Of a stretch of DNA of 27,624 nucleotides, positions 4,638 through 16,384 are shown one piece after another. This DNA is from a virus. The stretch covers positions 1 through 27,624 of the IMG/VR virus record IMGVR_UViG_3300023109_000101; one strand, written 5' to 3'. The notes under the pieces were generated by a model that was not told where the DNA came from, searched no databases, and worked only from the letters and a program-made list of their open reading frames with translations. The stretch's first letter is position 1. Each line of letters begins with the position of its first letter. The position numbers were made by a program, and so were the translations under genes.

Positions 4638-6224
4638 TTATGGTAAATTAGGTACGTTAATTATTTCTACATTTGCAGTAGGTTTAAAGCTAGTACCTGT
4701 TTCTAAAAATTTTAAAGCGGCTTTAACTTCGCCGTCTGTAGCACTATCAAATATAGTTACAGATCTATCAGTTCCTTCTACAGATTTAGTTAGTTTTCTA
4801 GTACCTTCTCCACCAACAGTTTCAACTTTAGATACATTGACATTGTATGGAGGTCTAGACACTAACTTTTCTAAAACATTTAAATTTAAAACACCTCTAC
4901 CTGGTTCTTGCGAAGGTCCTTCAGCAAATGCAGAGCTAATGTCTAATTCTTCTATATTTTCTATAGCAGCTTTATCTTGCGTTTGTTTTTCAGTAGCTTT
5001 CTTTTCTGTAGCTGTTTGCTCTACAATACCATCGTATTCAGCTTCGTCAAATACAAATTCTTTTGGCGGAGGAACTAATCCACGTACGTAAGAAAGCGTG
5101 CTATCTTGAAATTTAGTTTGATCATTTACGCTAAATGGACTACCGTTTTCGTTAGCAGCATCAGCATCTGGAATCATTTCATAATTAAACACGTTGTTAC
5201 TTATAGCGTTTATTCTACTTACATCTGGACTTGTAGTAAATGGCTTTACTAAATTATCTTCTACAGATTTTTTATATCTATCGACAAGAGCTGTTTCGTT
5301 ATAATTATACTGAACATAAACCTTACCTGCTTTTCTTGTTATTTTTTCTGGACTTGAGGTATCATAAAAATTAAGATCATTAACTTGTCCATTTTTACCA
5401 ACTAAGTTTACCCCGTTTGGATTGTCATCAGTCTTAGCACCGAGTATTTCAACGCTTGTTGTTTTAATATCTGGTATTCTGCCTGGATCGGACTGTAAAA
5501 AATTTAAAGGATCTACAACTATACCTCCAAACTCTTCATCTTCTGTAAATAAATTTTTATTTTGTTGTATTTCTTTACTGTTAAGAACCATAGACAAACC
5601 TTTTTCATCGCTGTCTTTGTCCCATATCAAGCTTGAAGAGCTATCAGCTGAAGAACCTCCATAAGCAGACATACCAAACCAGTATTGGTTATTCTGCTTT
5701 CCAGCACCAGAAAGTGCTATACCACCTGGTTTCCCGTTGTTCGATGCTAAAGAATCTTCACCGTAGGTTTTAATGGCGTCTGGAGTTTCTTTAATGACTT
5801 GCGTCAACTTACCATAAGCTAAATTAGTTTTAAATATATTGTTTTCAGATATCTTAGCATTTTCTGAATCATTATTTCTTTTATACATAGCAAGTAAAGT
5901 TTCTTGCTCTTCTAAATAATCTATCATTTCAGTACCTACTCTAGCAAACTCTTCATTTTGAGCTAAGCCATGCTCGCCTAATGATTTAGAATACTGTTCT
6001 CTTTTAGTAGTTGCGTTTTTGTTTATACCATTCAACATTTTTTTTATAGCTGCGTTCTCTGCGCTGACAGCCTGGTTCTGTCTTTCTATAAAATTAGCAG
6101 TAATGTTACCTACATTAGATATTGTCTGAGATATGATAGCACCAGTCTTAGTATCTACAGGAGTCACAGGATTTTCATAAGCTCCAGAGCGGGTATAATT
6201 TCTTGAAAATTTTGGTAGTGCCAT
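4638..6224 (-). CDS. Putative internal virion protein (528 aa), middle ejection gene
   Basis: This 528-aa protein starts at an ATG behind an A-rich leader and ends 9 nt before the giant gene. The N-terminal third (residues about 25-170) is rich in Asn, Gln, Lys, Glu and Ala and looks helical. The middle has a Gly/Ser-rich stretch (YGGSSADSSSS near residue 200), and the C-terminal part is more mixed. There is no signal peptide, membrane segment or catalytic motif that I recognise. It lies between a small Gln/Ala-rich protein and the giant protein, the slot of gp15 in T7-like phages, so I infer an internal capsid or ejected protein. An alternative is a tail-needle or other structural protein. 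The function is inferred from position only. Confidence 0.65.
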   Translation of the reverse strand: MALPKFSRNYTRSGAYENPVTPVDTKTGAIISQTISNVGNITANFIERQNQAVSAENAAIKKMLNGINKNATTKREQYSKSLGEHGLAQNEEFARVGTEMIDYLEEQETLLAMYKRNNDSENAKISENNIFKTNLAYGKLTQVIKETPDAIKTYGEDSLASNNGKPGGIALSGAGKQNNQYWFGMSAYGGSSADSSSSLIWDKDSDEKGLSMVLNSKEIQQNKNLFTEDEEFGGIVVDPLNFLQSDPGRIPDIKTTSVEILGAKTDDNPNGVNLVGKNGQVNDLNFYDTSSPEKITRKAGKVYVQYNYNETALVDRYKKSVEDNLVKPFTTSPDVSRINAISNNVFNYEMIPDADAANENGSPFSVNDQTKFQDSTLSYVRGLVPPPKEFVFDEAEYDGIVEQTATEKKATEKQTQDKAAIENIEELDISSAFAEGPSQEPGRGVLNLNVLEKLVSRPPYNVNVSKVETVGGEGTRKLTKSVEGTDRSVTIFDSATDGEVKAALKFLETGTSFKPTANVEIINVPNLP

Positions 6225-6233
6225 TTATTTTTT

Positions 6234-6328
6234 TTATTTAAACAACGGATTTGTAACTTTAAATTCTTCCGTTAATTGTGAACTTGTATATGTGGGTGTA
6301 GGTTTTACAGAATTTTTTCCTACCTCTA
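6234..6328 (-). other. -1 frame extension ORF (31 codons) of the 238-aa gene
   Basis: In the -1 frame after the slippery site, the codons from 6329 to 6237 read IEVGKNSVKPTPTYTSS then QLTEEFKVTNPLFK and stop at TAA 6236-6234, 9 nt before the next start. The segment has no ATG, GTG or TTG in a sensible place to start on its own. Its composition is ordinary phage protein and it fills the only sizeable gap in the ejection block. It is best read as a C-terminal tail added by frameshifting. The alternative is a single-base error in the 0 frame that truncates a longer protein. Confidence 0.55.
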
Positions 6329-6335
6329 TTTTCCC
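6298..6335 (-). promoter_or_regulatory. Candidate -1 programmed frameshift site: slippery heptamer plus stem-loop
   Basis: On the minus strand 6335-6329 reads G GGA AAA in the 0 frame, followed at once by TAG (6328-6326). It fits the X XXY YYZ rule exactly, so both tRNAs can re-pair after slipping back by one. Five nucleotides after the heptamer, GTAGG (6323-6319) can pair with CCTAC (6302-6298) around a 16-nt A/U-rich loop. The spacing suits a stimulatory stem, although the stem is short. Confidence 0.5.
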
Positions 6336-7042
6336 ACCGCAGAAGATGCTATATTACCAACAGCACTTATACCTGCACCTATAGCAGCTGCGCCGTCAGC
6401 TCTAGCCTGCATTTCAGCTTGTTGTTGACCAGTTATTTGAGTTTGTAATCTATTTAGATTTTCTGTTTCTCTACGTTCTGTCTCGCCATAAACAAATTCT
6501 TTACCTAATACATCTGTCTCTTGCATTCTAGCAGCTTCGCCCATTGAAGAGCTTTGAACTCGCTGAGCTTCTGATAGTTTTTGTTGTTGTAAAAACTGTT
6601 CGCCTTGCGCTGCAAGTTTTTGATTTTGTGCCTGTTGTTGTTCTATGCTTGCAGAAACTCCTCGTTTACTTTGTAAAGCGGCTTGCGCTAGAGCAGTAGC
6701 TCCGCCAGCGCTAGCACCGGTAGCAGCCAAAGTATCTAACGTGTTTGCTAGAGCTATATCAGCTTCTTCTGCTTGAAATTCAGCAGCTTGCGTAGCAACA
6801 CCCACATTAGCGTAAGCATTAGATAACAAACCAGTGTTATCTACAATCATATCAGCTAAACTAGTTACATCAGCATAAGGATTTATCACATCTTGTCTAG
6901 ACTCTTCAGCCGCTTTAAATTCTGCTTGTAAAGCTTTTTTTTCTTTAGCGGCTCTTCTCTCTGCTTTTTTTGCATTACTCGCGCCAAATACAGCTCCACC
7001 TATACTTACCGCGGCACCAACACCTGCTGCTATAAAACTCAT
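6326..7042 (-). CDS. Putative internal virion protein (238 aa), likely extended by -1 frameshift
   Basis: The protein begins with a hydrophobic Gly/Ala segment (FIAAGVGAAVSIGGAVFGAS, residues 3-22), then a Lys/Arg/Ala/Glu helix, a long Gln/Ala-rich helical body (residues about 80-215), and ends with a second Gly/Ala hydrophobic stretch (AAIGAGISAVGNIASSAVG). Small proteins with glycine-rich hydrophobic ends next to two larger helical proteins are typical of podovirus ejection sets such as T7 gp14 and P22 gp7. I infer that it inserts into or helps form the conduit through the host envelope. It starts 2 nt after the cupin gene. The 0-frame stop (TAG 6328-6326) directly follows the slippery heptamer GGGAAAA, and the -1 frame continues for 31 codons. 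A 269-residue form is therefore likely. Confidence 0.7.
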   Translation of the reverse strand: MSFIAAGVGAAVSIGGAVFGASNAKKAERRAAKEKKALQAEFKAAEESRQDVINPYADVTSLADMIVDNTGLLSNAYANVGVATQAAEFQAEEADIALANTLDTLAATGASAGGATALAQAALQSKRGVSASIEQQQAQNQKLAAQGEQFLQQQKLSEAQRVQSSSMGEAARMQETDVLGKEFVYGETERRETENLNRLQTQITGQQQAEMQARADGAAAIGAGISAVGNIASSAVGK

Positions 7043-7487: not shown

Positions 7488-8912
7488 TTAATAACTTGAT
7501 TCTACGTAATTAGAAGAAACAGCAAATAATTCTTTTTTACCGTTAGGATCTGTGGTTGAATCAGTAGATAATTTTACCGTAACTAAATAACCTTTAATAC
7601 CAGAAACACTTTCACCGTATAAAACTTCTTGTGGTTGCGGCTGGCTATTGTTTTTTATAGCAGACATGTACTTGTTTTCTTTTCTATTAAAACCGTATCG
7701 CTGTATAAAGTAACCACCTGATATTGTTAAAGAATCCCAAGAAGAATCTAAAGGAGTAACTATAGTAGAACCGTTTATTACGTATTGACCTTCTTCATAA
7801 CTAGCTATAGGTATAGCTGAATCTGCAAAAGCTGTAGGATTACCTGAAACCGTATCAAATTCAGTAGCGTCAGAAACAATACTTTCTACTTTCCAACCGT
7901 TAGTACCTTCGTAATTAATAGTGCTAAAGTTTTTTGACATTGAAACTTTAGGGTTAAATATTAAAGTTACTGTAGCTGGTTGTGATATTCCATAAAAATT
8001 ATTATAACTACCAATATAATGTTGGTATATTTTGCTACCATTAGTAGTATAAAAATTATTTTTTAAACTAAATATTTGGCTAGGCTTATAGTTATAAAAA
8101 CTAATCCAACCTTGGGGTCTTTCGTCATATGCCAAAGTTTTATAATTACTATCGGTAGTTGGGTTTAATTCCCAAGGTTGAAAGGAAGTTACATAACTTT
8201 TAGCGTGTATATCCCAGCCACCTTTTATAGTTCCTATCTGACCACTGCCACCATCTAAATTATTAAGCTCATCTCTAAAAAAATCACGCATACCGTAAGA
8301 AGATATCTCAGTAATGCCATCTTGTGACAATCTTAACACAGCATTTCTTTTTCTATCAGTAAAATATTTTCTATAACCATAAACAGCAAAGCTACCAGGA
8401 TCTTGACTTATACCATACTTACCAGCGTAAGGTACTATTTGGCCTATAACCATAGCCCCTGAGGTTGTAATAGCAGAACCTTCAGCAGAATAAATCGCGT
8501 CTTTGTCTATTAAAGCTCTACTAACTTTATCTTCTTGAAATATAGTTAGGTTAGTATTTTCAGCATACAACTTTTGTATAGACCCGTTCTGTGGATCTAA
8601 ACTCCTACTAATATCTTCACCTGCTGGAAAAACATTTGTATCATTTACACCTGTTCTAGAGTTAAATATACCAGAATAAATAAGAGAATTAAATCTTATA
8701 GAACCTGTATTGTTTTCAGAAACAAGATAAGCTCTTGGTCCAAAACCTACAGACACACCGTTAAATCTACCTTTAATTCTAGACTCTTCTATTATCCAGT
8801 TTCTAGACGGGGTTGATGTTGACGGCTTGTATGCTGGTACATCTGTTGTGCCTTCAACAGTCTTTCTTAGTAAGAAGGAATTAAAATATTTAACTTCTAT
8901 TGTAGCAGACAT
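7488..8912 (-). CDS. Tail structural protein (474 aa), beta-rich
   Basis: This is a 474-aa beta-rich protein with many Gly, Asn, Ser and Tyr residues. A conserved-looking core spans residues about 39-145: WIIEESRIKGRFNG, NSLIYSGIFNSRTG, NGSIQKLYAENTNL and DKVSRALIDKDAIYSAEG. It continues with a segment containing YGYRKYFTDRKRNAVLRLSQDG near residue 190, which is reminiscent of a propeller blade. I associate this pattern with a large tail protein seen in crAss-like and other marine Bacteroidota podophages, where it accompanies the 'MNKDLD' tail protein encoded here at 9732-13166. Assignment as a tail-tube or 'muzzle'-type component is inference. The start at ATG 8912 is set by the MSATIEVKYF reading and lies directly behind an (AT)6 tract. 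Confidence 0.6.
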   Translation of the reverse strand: MSATIEVKYFNSFLLRKTVEGTTDVPAYKPSTSTPSRNWIIEESRIKGRFNGVSVGFGPRAYLVSENNTGSIRFNSLIYSGIFNSRTGVNDTNVFPAGEDISRSLDPQNGSIQKLYAENTNLTIFQEDKVSRALIDKDAIYSAEGSAITTSGAMVIGQIVPYAGKYGISQDPGSFAVYGYRKYFTDRKRNAVLRLSQDGITEISSYGMRDFFRDELNNLDGGSGQIGTIKGGWDIHAKSYVTSFQPWELNPTTDSNYKTLAYDERPQGWISFYNYKPSQIFSLKNNFYTTNGSKIYQHYIGSYNNFYGISQPATVTLIFNPKVSMSKNFSTINYEGTNGWKVESIVSDATEFDTVSGNPTAFADSAIPIASYEEGQYVINGSTIVTPLDSSWDSLTISGGYFIQRYGFNRKENKYMSAIKNNSQPQPQEVLYGESVSGIKGYLVTVKLSTDSTTDPNGKKELFAVSSNYVESSY

Positions 8913-13172: not shown

Positions 13173-14387
13173 TTAGTGTTTAATCCATTTAGATTTGCCT
13201 CGTGTAACCTGTACTATTTCGTTAAGCTTGGTGTTTGATAAACGTATTTTAGCATTTCTAAGTTTAGCGCTACGTTCTTTCTTTAAACGTTGAATTACAT
13301 ATTCGTTTTGATTTATTCTAGAAGCTAATATAGCATGCGATACGTGAGCGTAGATAGCTTCTTCTGCCATTTTAGGTATCTTAGTATCTTCATTAGTTGC
13401 AAGACCATCAGAGATGTATTCTAATACAACTATTCTATCTACTAGATTAGCAGAAAAAGAAAACTTATTGTATCTTTCGTCTATATTGAAGTAGCCATTA
13501 GCATTAGCAAACTGCGGATCTAACCCAAATAACTGGCCGTAGCCAAACTCTGGATAGCCATAGTAATATTCCCAGCCTAATATAGTATCGTTAAGTAAGT
13601 CTTGATTGTTTGCGTTTTTAAAGAAGTTGTTTTTCCAGCGATCGTTTGTTATAGAAGTTGTTTCAACGCTATTACCAAAATCATCTTGAATAGGAACTCC
13701 TTGATTATCATCTGCAAAAACACCTGTGGGTTTAGTAGTGAGCATATCCCCTGGCATTATAACGTGTTTAACGCCTGAGTTATCTATCCAATATAAATTA
13801 ACATAGTTAACATAATCTTGAGGTATTGGTATGCTTAAGTTGTGAGGCACAGTAACCTCTAGTTTGTTTACGCTTTTTAAAGTATCATAGCTAAACTCTT
13901 GAAGTCCACGTTTAACGTGAAACACTACGTCAGTTCTTTTAACACTTGGTATAAGTTTACCATCACCTACATAAGCTACTAAAAAGTTATTCACGACATC
14001 ATCTAAAGATATATAACTATATGAACCATAGTTTTTTTCTACAGTATCACCATAGGCTTTTTCTTGAAATGTACTAGCGTAATTACCACCGTCTAATTTT
14101 TTAAGTTGAACAACTATATATAGTAAATCAGCTGGGGCTATATCAAATGTAATAGTGTTACTATTTACGGTATAACCAGAAACAACCTCAGACCAAGTTC
14201 CAGGAATAGCATTAGTGCTAGTATATATTTTAAAATTATTTAAAGCATAGTTTACATTAGTATTACTTGCCGATCCAAATACTAAATCAGTGTTAAACGT
14301 TGTAGTAAAGCTTTTGTTAGATCCATTGCCCTGAAAACCTTGCGCGCCTTCGTAATACTGTCTATTGTTTTCTTTTAATAGTCCCAT
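13173..14387 (-). CDS. Neck/ring protein, paralogue B2 (404 aa)
   Basis: Residues about 125-180 (SYISLDDVVNNFLVAYVG, GKLIPSVKRTDVVFHVKRG, LQEFSYDTLKS) closely match the 193-aa protein B1 encoded at 15107-15688. The C-terminal helices match too (IPKMAEEAIYAHVSHAILASR against IPKLAEEALYSCMIYSILANR). B2 differs by a beta-rich N-terminal extension of about 125 residues, a large insertion rich in Tyr, Phe and Asn around residues 215-310, and a basic tail ending KSKWIKH. The four genes here resemble the ring proteins stacked below the portal in crAss-like phages. I infer a head-tail connector role, with B2 probably more distal or peripheral because of its added domains. Confidence 0.65.
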   Translation of the reverse strand: MGLLKENNRQYYEGAQGFQGNGSNKSFTTTFNTDLVFGSASNTNVNYALNNFKIYTSTNAIPGTWSEVVSGYTVNSNTITFDIAPADLLYIVVQLKKLDGGNYASTFQEKAYGDTVEKNYGSYSYISLDDVVNNFLVAYVGDGKLIPSVKRTDVVFHVKRGLQEFSYDTLKSVNKLEVTVPHNLSIPIPQDYVNYVNLYWIDNSGVKHVIMPGDMLTTKPTGVFADDNQGVPIQDDFGNSVETTSITNDRWKNNFFKNANNQDLLNDTILGWEYYYGYPEFGYGQLFGLDPQFANANGYFNIDERYNKFSFSANLVDRIVVLEYISDGLATNEDTKIPKMAEEAIYAHVSHAILASRINQNEYVIQRLKKERSAKLRNAKIRLSNTKLNEIVQVTRGKSKWIKH

Positions 14388-14390
14388 TTA

Positions 14391-15095
14391 TTAACTTCTT
14401 TCATTTACGTTTTCAGCTTGAACGGCTTGATTAGCGGCTTGTACTATTTGTGGATCTCTTATAACTATACCAGCATATGCTAATATTCTAAGCACAACTT
14501 CAGTTTGTTCTGTTTCGTCTATTTCAAAATCAGTGCTATTGTTAGGAGAGTGTACCAAAACCTGTGTGGTTATGTCTTTGGTAAAACCCCATACAACATC
14601 ATCTGGTCTTCTTATATAATCTAAATTAACGCTAGTTATGCTGGTTGGGTTAGATAATATTTTATTGTCTTGAAAAAGATATACAGGGTAATTTTCGTTA
14701 GGTAAAGTAAGATCTGATTTTAAAACGTTGTAGTAAGCGTTTCTTTGAAGTCTTTGTAATTCAATTTCATAACCCGCGGCAGCACCTACAGTACCGTCAT
14801 AAGTTACAGTTCCTAATCTATAAACGTCACTACCTATGTCTGTGTCTCTATTAACAGTTTTTCTTCTTCTAAATAAAGACATTTTTTCATCTATACCATC
14901 AGTCCTATCAGCGTAATCCATATCATTTTGAGGAACTCTACTAGATTGATTTAAGTCCTCAAAATATTTTTTAAATATTTCTAATTGAACCTGTGTAGCT
15001 GTTTTATTAAACTCATCAGGCGTCATATAACCGCGCTGCTCTTTGTTTAATATAAGCAACACAGTTTGATACACGTTGTTTACGTTAATCGCCAT
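14391..15095 (-). CDS. Neck/ring protein, paralogue A2 (234 aa)
   Basis: The 234-aa protein begins MAINVNNVYQTVLLILNKEQ and is clearly homologous along its length to A1 at 15695-16384. Both share MAINVNxVY, then RGxxTPxEFNKxATQxQxEIF, YFxxLNQ, YADR and DEKxSLF within the first 80 residues. Later they share a YPVYxxxxxxI stretch and a C-terminal helical part starting at DFEIDETEQTEVVLRILAYAG. It alternates with the B-type genes (order A1-B1-A2-B2), 11 nt after B1 and 3 nt before B2. A head-tail adaptor in a ring below the portal is the best guess, by analogy with crAss-like neck proteins and from its position between capsid and tail genes. Confidence 0.7.
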   Translation of the reverse strand: MAINVNNVYQTVLLILNKEQRGYMTPDEFNKTATQVQLEIFKKYFEDLNQSSRVPQNDMDYADRTDGIDEKMSLFRRRKTVNRDTDIGSDVYRLGTVTYDGTVGAAAGYEIELQRLQRNAYYNVLKSDLTLPNENYPVYLFQDNKILSNPTSITSVNLDYIRRPDDVVWGFTKDITTQVLVHSPNNSTDFEIDETEQTEVVLRILAYAGIVIRDPQIVQAANQAVQAENVNERS

Positions 15096-15106
15096 GCTAT
15101 TTTATT

Positions 15107-15688
15107 TTAGTCGAAGTTAGTAAAGACTAGTCTTGATTTAGCTTTGTCTAGCTTGTCGGTTTTTTCTATAAGTAATCTTTGTAAAACGTCTGGTCTTGTA
15201 TTCTCTCTATTAGCAAGTATAGAATATATCATGCAAGAGTATAAAGCTTCTTCTGCTAATTTAGGTATAGCAGCTGACTCATCTGTAGTAAGAGCGTTAG
15301 AGAGATATGTTAAAGTTGCATCACCTGAATCACCATATGTTATTGTTTTATTTATATAGTTTATATAATATTGACCAGTGCTTGGAGAAGGTGAAGAAGT
15401 ATCTTCAAGAGGAAATGTTGTACTACCAATTTTGATACTAGCTGATATAACAGCTACAAAATCAGCCGGCAAATCAACAGCAATTCCGGATGTTACAGTT
15501 GTAGGACCTTCAGTAAATTGACTTTTTAAAGTTTCATAAGCAAACTCCTGTAAGCATCTACGAGCATGGAATATAACCTCAGTTCTTACAGCGTCTGGTA
15601 TTAATTTACCAGGTCCTGTGTATGATATTAAAAAGTTGTTTATAATATCATTAAGCGATATAAAAGCGTTTGATATAGTTGTTGCCAT
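15107..15688 (-). CDS. Neck/ring protein, paralogue B1 (193 aa)
   Basis: This is the short, minimal version of the B family: an N-terminal helical hairpin (ISLNDIINNFLISYTG, GKLIPDAVRTEVIFHARRC, LQEFAYETLKS, residues about 10-60), a beta middle (residues 65-125), and two C-terminal helices ending AKSRLVFTNFD. The helix-beta-helix layout and length are typical of small head-tail connector proteins, such as tail-tubular A or gp6-type adaptors. This is fold-level inference. It follows A1 after 6 nt and precedes A2 after 11 nt, all one presumed operon. It shares about half or more of the residues with B2 over the N-terminal 50 positions by eye. Confidence 0.65.
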   Translation of the reverse strand: MATTISNAFISLNDIINNFLISYTGPGKLIPDAVRTEVIFHARRCLQEFAYETLKSQFTEGPTTVTSGIAVDLPADFVAVISASIKIGSTTFPLEDTSSPSPSTGQYYINYINKTITYGDSGDATLTYLSNALTTDESAAIPKLAEEALYSCMIYSILANRENTRPDVLQRLLIEKTDKLDKAKSRLVFTNFD

Positions 15689-15694
15689 GATTTA

Positions 15695-16384
15695 TTATTT
15701 TTGTCCGTCTACGTCTATTTGTTGCTCTTTGCTAGCTGCTAATTGTAAAGCTAATTGATCTCTACTCATTACACCTGCATAACCTAATATTTTATCTATT
15801 AAAAGAGGTTGGTCTGATTTATGTATTTCAAATTGAGTTGAAGCTTGTTCGTTGTAGATATAATTACCAAGCTCTGTATCGATAGTAAAGCCCCATTTAA
15901 CGTCAGCTGGAAACTTTAAAAAGTTTAAAGTAACACTACCAGTTAATGGGTTAGGATATAATTCTATCTCGCCGGCCTCGTATGTGTATACCGGATAAAA
16001 TTCTGTAGGTTTTGTAAGCGGTGATATGTTTGTTGTGTATACTTCGTATTTTTGTATTCTTTGAACTTCTCTATTATTGTATACAACAGTGCCTAGTTCT
16101 TGAACTTGCACGGGTACAGATACTTTATTAGCATTAATACTTACAGTCGCGGATGTTTTAAACAAAGATATTTTTTCGTCTAATAACGCATATCTATCAG
16201 CATACGCTAGACTAGTCTGAGGTTGTCTTAACAGTTGATTAAGCTCGTCAAAGTACTCTGTGAATATTTCTTGCTGTGCTTGTGTAGCAATTTTATTAAA
16301 CTCAGCAGGTGTAAGTACACCTCTTTTTTCTTGTTGCAATACCACGAGCACGGCTTTGTATACCTGATTTACGTTTATAGCCAT
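15695..16384 (-). CDS. Neck/ring protein, paralogue A1 (229 aa)
   Basis: The 229-aa protein starts MAINVNQVYKAVLVVLQQEK behind an A/T-only leader. It is the first of the A1-B1-A2-B2 set and is homologous to A2 (234 aa). The first 80 residues look helical (AEFNKIATQAQQEIFTEYFD, ELNQLLRQ). The middle is beta-rich with VYTYEAGEIELYPNP (residues about 135-150), and the C-terminus returns to helices (LIDKILGYAGVMSRDQLALQ). It comes after the capsid gene and an unknown 256-aa gene and before the large tail protein, the interval where neck proteins are encoded in crAss-like phages. The role as a portal-proximal ring or adaptor protein is inferred. Confidence 0.7.
   Translation of the reverse strand: MAINVNQVYKAVLVVLQQEKRGVLTPAEFNKIATQAQQEIFTEYFDELNQLLRQPQTSLAYADRYALLDEKISLFKTSATVSINANKVSVPVQVQELGTVVYNNREVQRIQKYEVYTTNISPLTKPTEFYPVYTYEAGEIELYPNPLTGSVTLNFLKFPADVKWGFTIDTELGNYIYNEQASTQFEIHKSDQPLLIDKILGYAGVMSRDQLALQLAASKEQQIDVDGQK

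Follow-up and report, generated by a model that had tools for sequence, protein, structure and literature searches.

The gene for a probable small virion protein (238 aa) of a crass-related phage ends in a slippery heptamer, G GGA AAA, directly before a UAG stop codon, and comparison with related sequences makes it highly probable that programmed −1 ribosomal frameshifting at this site adds 31 residues to part of the product. The window analysed here is a stretch of 27,624 nt (IMG/VR record IMGVR_UViG_3300023109_000101), with the site and its neighbouring genes on the minus strand. The gene (6326..7042), assigned by its reading frame, homologues, hhalign and AlphaFold2, ends GCG GTG GGA AAA TAG, so that the heptamer at 6335..6329 stands in the correct frame and touches the stop codon at 6328..6326. 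The −1 frame is then open for 31 codons plus a TAA at 6236..6234 (IEVGKNSVKPTPTYTSSQLTEEFKVTNPLFK; 6234..6329; homologous −1 tails are found elsewhere) and is separated by 9 nt from the ATG, at 6224, of the next gene (528 aa; 4638..6224). The shifted product would measure 269 aa, with ...SSAVGKIEVGK as the predicted 0/−1 junction and NSVKPTPTYTSSQLTEEFK as the tail peptide. The tail fills most of a gap of 101 nt, compared with ca. 13 nt normally found in this gene family, and has no usable start codon of its own (a single TTG lies three codons from its end), so standard ORF calling misses it. The gene end, heptamer, open −1 frame and start-less filling of the gap had all been proposed in a first-pass annotation and are present in the sequence as it described them.

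Taken by itself, the window makes a modest, suggestive case for frameshifting, and it is the comparison of homologues that decides. An open frame of 31 codons remains in 7.7% of Markov-simulated sequences of the gap's composition. Read in the −1 frame, the gap has a codon score of +5.9 bits, the two remaining forward frames scoring −14.9 and −8.9; of the simulated open frames, 5% do as well, and one reverse-strand frame of the same gap does better (+10.5). The stem that had been noticed beyond the heptamer exists as a possible weak pairing of GTAGG (6323..6319) with CCTAC (6302..6298), a 5-bp stem with a 16-nt loop at 6298..6323 that begins 5 nt after the heptamer, but as a stimulator it lacks statistical support because the region folds no better than shuffled sequences (z −0.25, +1.10 and −0.07).

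The window belongs to the crass-related phages. Its TerL is 63% identical to that of MW202828 and 46% identical to those of the Flavobacterium elemo phages, its portal and MCP fall into PHROG families, and its genes run in the order TerL, portal, MCP, ring proteins, muzzle, a 145-aa protein, the 238-aa protein and the 528-aa protein. This context is fixed by a muzzle-type protein (crAss_MUZ_C; 7488..8912, minus strand; Pfam PF25729, E 2.5e-8, above its cut-off), and the 238-aa gene thus lies after the muzzle and before a large cargo gene, with the 145-aa gene in between. In phi-crAss001, the cargo proteins C1 and C2 (gp45 and gp46) are encoded right after the muzzle (PMC10172136). TerL, MCP and synteny led to the isolates, and a subsequent profile comparison with hhalign connected the gene family, as remote homologues, to proteins of phi38:1, phi18:3, elemo and Panino (probability 98.2, E 4.5e-14). 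Of these, gp120 of the Cellulophaga phage phi18:3 is annotated as a virion protein from MS/MS proteomics. The AlphaFold2 model of the 238-aa protein is all-helical (pLDDT 72.7, pTM 0.39) and, among viral folds, comes closest to a protein named "internal virion protein" (E 1.5e-3). A search of the phages collection with the 238-aa protein, L109 and L119 (related loci are given here as L numbers) returned no match, and the PDB held neither a significant sequence match nor a fold match at E 0.001 or better. The T7_gp14 family (PF24072) was hit by 3 of 23 members with a best E of 0.006, below the cut-off, and not by the window protein itself. Homology to a protein detected by mass spectrometry and the place after the muzzle support a virion protein of the cargo class, whereas its ejection into the host, as named in the first-pass annotation, is something we infer. 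The phages that carry this gene family are uncultivated, mostly aquatic and crass-related, and the host is inferred to be a member of the Bacteroidetes, the label (or that of a Bacteroidetes lineage) borne by five of eight bacterial or archaeal genome contigs with relatives. We note separately that a gene pair for ring proteins is duplicated in tandem at positions 13173-16384 of the window (234 aa and 229 aa, 43% identical; 404 aa and 193 aa, sharing two segments at 47-48%), while the annotated relatives Panino and elemo apparently have one such pair.

Two close relatives show how differently this gene can end. L001 is 98.9% identical to the window over 8.7 kb and elsewhere unrelated except for a 0.6-kb stretch at 91%; it represents a different population with an identical site, which excludes an assembly error private to the window, and since its tail is identical, too, this closest relative says nothing about selection. 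L002, at ca. 96% DNA identity and syntenic on both flanks, lacks the tail, and the last 20 nt of the gene together with the tail are swapped for a different in-frame end of 21 residues. The absence of the tail despite this identity marks it as a cassette that has been gained and lost many times. Judged from the sequences at hand, the frameshift site is absent from most close homologues: no other combination of heptamer and tail was seen among the first 64, and a 51-aa query fusing the 0-frame end to the tail found L001 as sole relative.

A wider census revealed the same arrangement in many loci. From more than 500 relatives in IMG/VR, we took the best 80 per search and obtained 202 distinct gene ends, of which 196 were compared once duplicates and a single mis-called end had been taken out. 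Distances to the next start are bimodally distributed among the 202, nearly all lying below 45 nt and about 30 above 50 nt. An open −1 frame fills the gap in 26 of 196 gene ends (gaps of 59-126 nt, one of 327), and in three gene ends of the census it is the +1 frame that does so. An in-frame X XXY YYZ heptamer lies no more than four codons from the stop in 24 of the 26 ends with a −1 tail compared with 6 of 170 without one (p = 5e-23, in counts that treat the loci as independent, which they are not fully), and G GGA AAN accounts for 20 of 26 against 0 of 170. The stop itself is TAG in 19 of the 26 and in 13 of the other 170 (p 1e-12), an excess that could reflect weak termination or the demand of the −1 codons. 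With L156, L279 and L321, the −1 loci come to 29 distinct ones including the window, and 27 of these have a canonical heptamer at or within two codons of the stop, the exceptions being L087 and L153; conservation of heptamer and extension among homologues, which the first-pass annotation had put forward as a check, thus bears out its reading. As a control, 603 other gene ends on the same contigs yielded two with both heptamer and filled gap, one of them being L279, which is a member of the gene family itself. A heptamer alone stands near the stop in 85 of these 603 ends and is therefore less rare, so that the signal resides in the combination of heptamer and filled gap. Two candidates were set aside: L196, classed automatically as a tail locus, had a mis-called gene end and was removed, and L027 (+1, 16 codons) is probably a chance case.

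The geometry of these gene ends suggests that the shifted form is an addition to a complete protein. At tail loci, the 0-frame product extends 43.5 residues beyond a conserved arginine, compared with a mode of 41-46 in the rest, and its usual family length indicates that it is complete; the shifted product extends a median of 76 residues beyond the same arginine. The raw gap at tail loci has a median of 111.5 nt, but from the shifted stop to the next ATG the median is 12 nt (always 5-31 nt), as compared with 13 nt for tail-less ends (p 0.77). Between related tails, substitutions fall on −1 codon positions 1, 2 and 3 in the proportion 93/87/134 (p 3.5e-4, with the amino-acid alignment biasing toward this result).

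The tails themselves are shared among loci whose slip sites differ. Two alignment-based scans added further tail loci. L069, which was found through its downstream protein, reads ATG GGA AAT CAA GGG TAG and continues in a −1 tail, GKSRVGNNTVNPVSTLTPKGVQT, that can be aligned to GKIEVGKNSVKPTPTYT of the window; a scan with the L069 protein then added L106, L119, L109, L104 and L135, with L106 showing GGGAAAT TAG and a tail ..SVSPTSTYTSSQLADTFKVTNPLFQ. A degenerate DNA scan of IMG/VR for FKVTNPLF gave eight stretches, among which are five real carriers of the tail (the window with L001, L106, L153, L156 and L157), each out of frame with the upstream gene; L156 has the site T TTG GGG TAA and L157 has A AAG GGC TAA. 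In all, tails homologous to that of the window occur in the −1 frame of L106, L153, L156, L157, L221, L251, L321 and L069, and L321 is an independent Bacteroidetes MAG contig with GGGAAAT TAG and the tail LEATSSVSPTSTRTYTRSELMDIFGGAEVKL. The letters of the heptamer vary from locus to locus (GGGAAAA/T/C/G, AAAAAAG, TTTGGGG, AAAGGGC) while its position is kept, and tails such as TYTSSQL..FKVTNPLF are common to loci with different heptamers and to distant branches of the protein tree. Tails in the +1 frame follow GCC TTT GGG TAA C in L176, L182 and L259, and the peptide VSTLTPQGYSF is read in the +1 frame in L176 and in the −1 frame in L070, a tail type that L182 has in +1 as well. With regard to fused frames, IMG/VR contained no in-frame carrier of the FKVTNPLF or TLTPQGYSF tails and no fused version was found in the gene family, whereas cultured relatives do carry in-frame tails.

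We have weighed four other accounts of these observations. The main functional rival to an isoform with a docking tail is translational coupling, in which shifted ribosomes would stop 9 nt upstream of the 528-aa gene, re-initiate on it and set its dose, so that the peptide would hardly matter. The constant 5-31 nt between shifted stop and next ATG and the existence of several tail groups without shared sequence speak for it, but the conservation of the FKVTNPLF and TLTPQGYSF peptides across distant branches and the in-frame tails with similar ends in elemo and Panino indicate that the peptide does seem to matter, and we regard coupling as unlikely. That the tail is a decaying remnant, formerly in frame and now untranslated, would agree with its frequent gain and loss (at least 20 changes in 200 rows) and with the wide differences between groups; a remnant would not, however, keep a slippery heptamer at its junction (24/26 versus 6/170), an open −1 frame, the usual spacing to the following gene or peptides that resemble one another although their heptamers are unrelated, and this explanation is very improbable. 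Slightly less credible again is transcriptional slippage, or a +1 or −2 shift, as the route to the tail: the +1 tails at TTT GGG TAA C in L176/L182 and L259, one with the −1 peptide of L070, speak for it, but 26 loci are −1, 24 of these with two-tRNA heptamers, and the A run of the window comprises only four A, too short for the usual polymerase slippage. An assembly error or one-base deletion, whereby the tail would properly be in frame and the window would have lost a base, can practically be dismissed even though adding a single base to the A run would join the two frames and single-contig frameshifts do occur in the collection (L035, L063), given the same site in L001 and the MAG contig L321, the same arrangement with different heptamers in 29 loci, the lack of in-frame FKVTNPLF or TLTPQGYSF carriers in IMG/VR and a 0-frame product of ordinary length.

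Programmed −1 frameshifting fits these data better, and the persistence of the arrangement in ca. 30 related phages makes the slip signal look real. Most ribosomes would terminate at the UAG and release the 238-aa protein, while a minority, with the heptamer in their P and A sites, would slip back by one base and add 31 residues to give the 269-aa isoform. The most likely event is a tandem slippage in both sites, from GGA AAA to GGG AAA, that would compete with termination at the UAG and probably be aided by a pause at the stop codon. No stimulatory RNA structure emerged across the 26 tail loci (mean z −0.09 ± 0.22), nor did any upstream Shine-Dalgarno-like element consistent across the tail sites; such stimulators are common at −1 sites but not required of all. 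In most loci the stop codon adjoins the slip site, and UAG is in excess, which suggests slow termination rather than RNA structure as the source of the pause. The related G_GGA_AAG is highly shift-prone in E. coli (PMC5009743), and if lambda, with its GGGAAAG, and T7/T3 (both as cited in PMC9965538) are taken as a guide, between a few and about ten percent of ribosomes may shift. A fixed ratio of the two forms, as the first-pass annotation foresaw, is expected. The long form would then enter the virion in low copy, where its tail would dock it to the portal, the tail barrel, the next cargo protein or a similar partner.

The tails are often gained and lost. On a tree of 200 proteins, the state changes between tail and no tail at least 20 times, and in the sister pairs that we inspected, the entire gene end is replaced; none of these pairs is set apart by a mere indel joining the two frames. 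In-frame ends are found in phi38:1 gp099, phi18:3 gp120, elemo gp20 and Panino CDS0072 of the cultured relatives, and some are tail-like, with TTPLFQ in elemo and SVTPTSTQMNSAF..VINPL in Panino (E 0.003 to the L106 tail). This turnover matches a published view in which recombination places exchangeable C-terminal extensions either in frame or out of it and frameshifting comes to their rescue afterwards (PMC5009743). We tentatively propose, as an idea with real but less than even prospects, that slippery site, weak stop (mostly UAG) and tail form a cassette at the gene end which phages swap by recombination and decode in −1, +1 or in frame, and that this cargo or ejection protein would routinely come in two forms, of which the long one would be present in few copies and have a docking tail matched to another part of the virion.

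Other gene ends of the collection have features of their own. Where the frameshift is missing, many homologues instead end in an in-frame domain (SDRRLKKNIKLIG...GVMSDEIP...VDYSKIDVEFKQI) that resembles the S74 chaperone; such ends were seen in L006, L017, L025, L043, L048, L101, L143, L173, L212, L215, L277 and L280. S74 is an intramolecular chaperone of tail spikes, and a domain of this kind would here sit on a small virion protein; the Pfam S74 matches are weak (E 0.02-0.07). The homologue at L033:6001-7146 has a C-terminal domain of the intein type, Hint/Vint-like, whose match to Pfam Vint (E 5e-6) falls slightly short of the cut-off. In L035 and L063, the gene is broken by a frameshift in its middle, with no slippery heptamer seen, and these are probably assembly or sequencing errors.

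Known cases of frameshifting in phages concern tail chaperones and capsid or tail-tube proteins. Lambda G/GT are tail assembly chaperones that are absent from virions, unlike the probable small virion protein of short-tailed crass-related phages studied here, whose gene has its slip site right against the stop codon and an exchangeable tail of 16-44 aa; the gene order of the window also lacks the G/GT-type position at the major tail protein and tape measure of a long-tailed phage. In T7 gene 10A/10B, T3 and the kuravirus YF01, a structural protein of a short-tailed phage bears a −1 extension, in YF01 at a GGGAAAG near the natural stop of the major capsid gene (PMC9965538), though all three extend this shell protein and not a protein in the cargo (ejection) position. 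The Listeria phages PSA, A118 and A500 likewise reach C-terminal extensions by −1, by +1 or in frame depending on the phage, and the PSA tail gene shifts next to its stop (PMC5009743), but they do so in other capsid or tail proteins, at proline CCC shift sites and with unrelated extensions. With crassvirus C1/C2 (gp45 and gp46 of phi-crAss001) and T7 gp14, the 238-aa protein shares a position after the muzzle and before a large cargo protein, an all-helical make-up and a hydrophobic N-terminus; it differs from them in that it has no significant PDB sequence match and that T7_gp14 stays below the cut-off. No report of frameshifting in crass-like phages or in ejection proteins was found in the literature searched, which comprised papers open without subscription. 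The shift signal is textbook, and that literature gave no precedent for its use on this gene family, where it comes with tails that can be exchanged and with shifts in either direction.

In Bacteroidetes, little is known about ribosome slippage next to a stop codon, and the ca. 30 natural sites described here, with their varied heptamers and a +1 variant, provide a series for testing how bacterial ribosomes slip beside a stop. For the crass-related phages, a conserved frameshift signal in the cargo slot suggests that injected or channel proteins, too, may be made in two forms at a controlled ratio.
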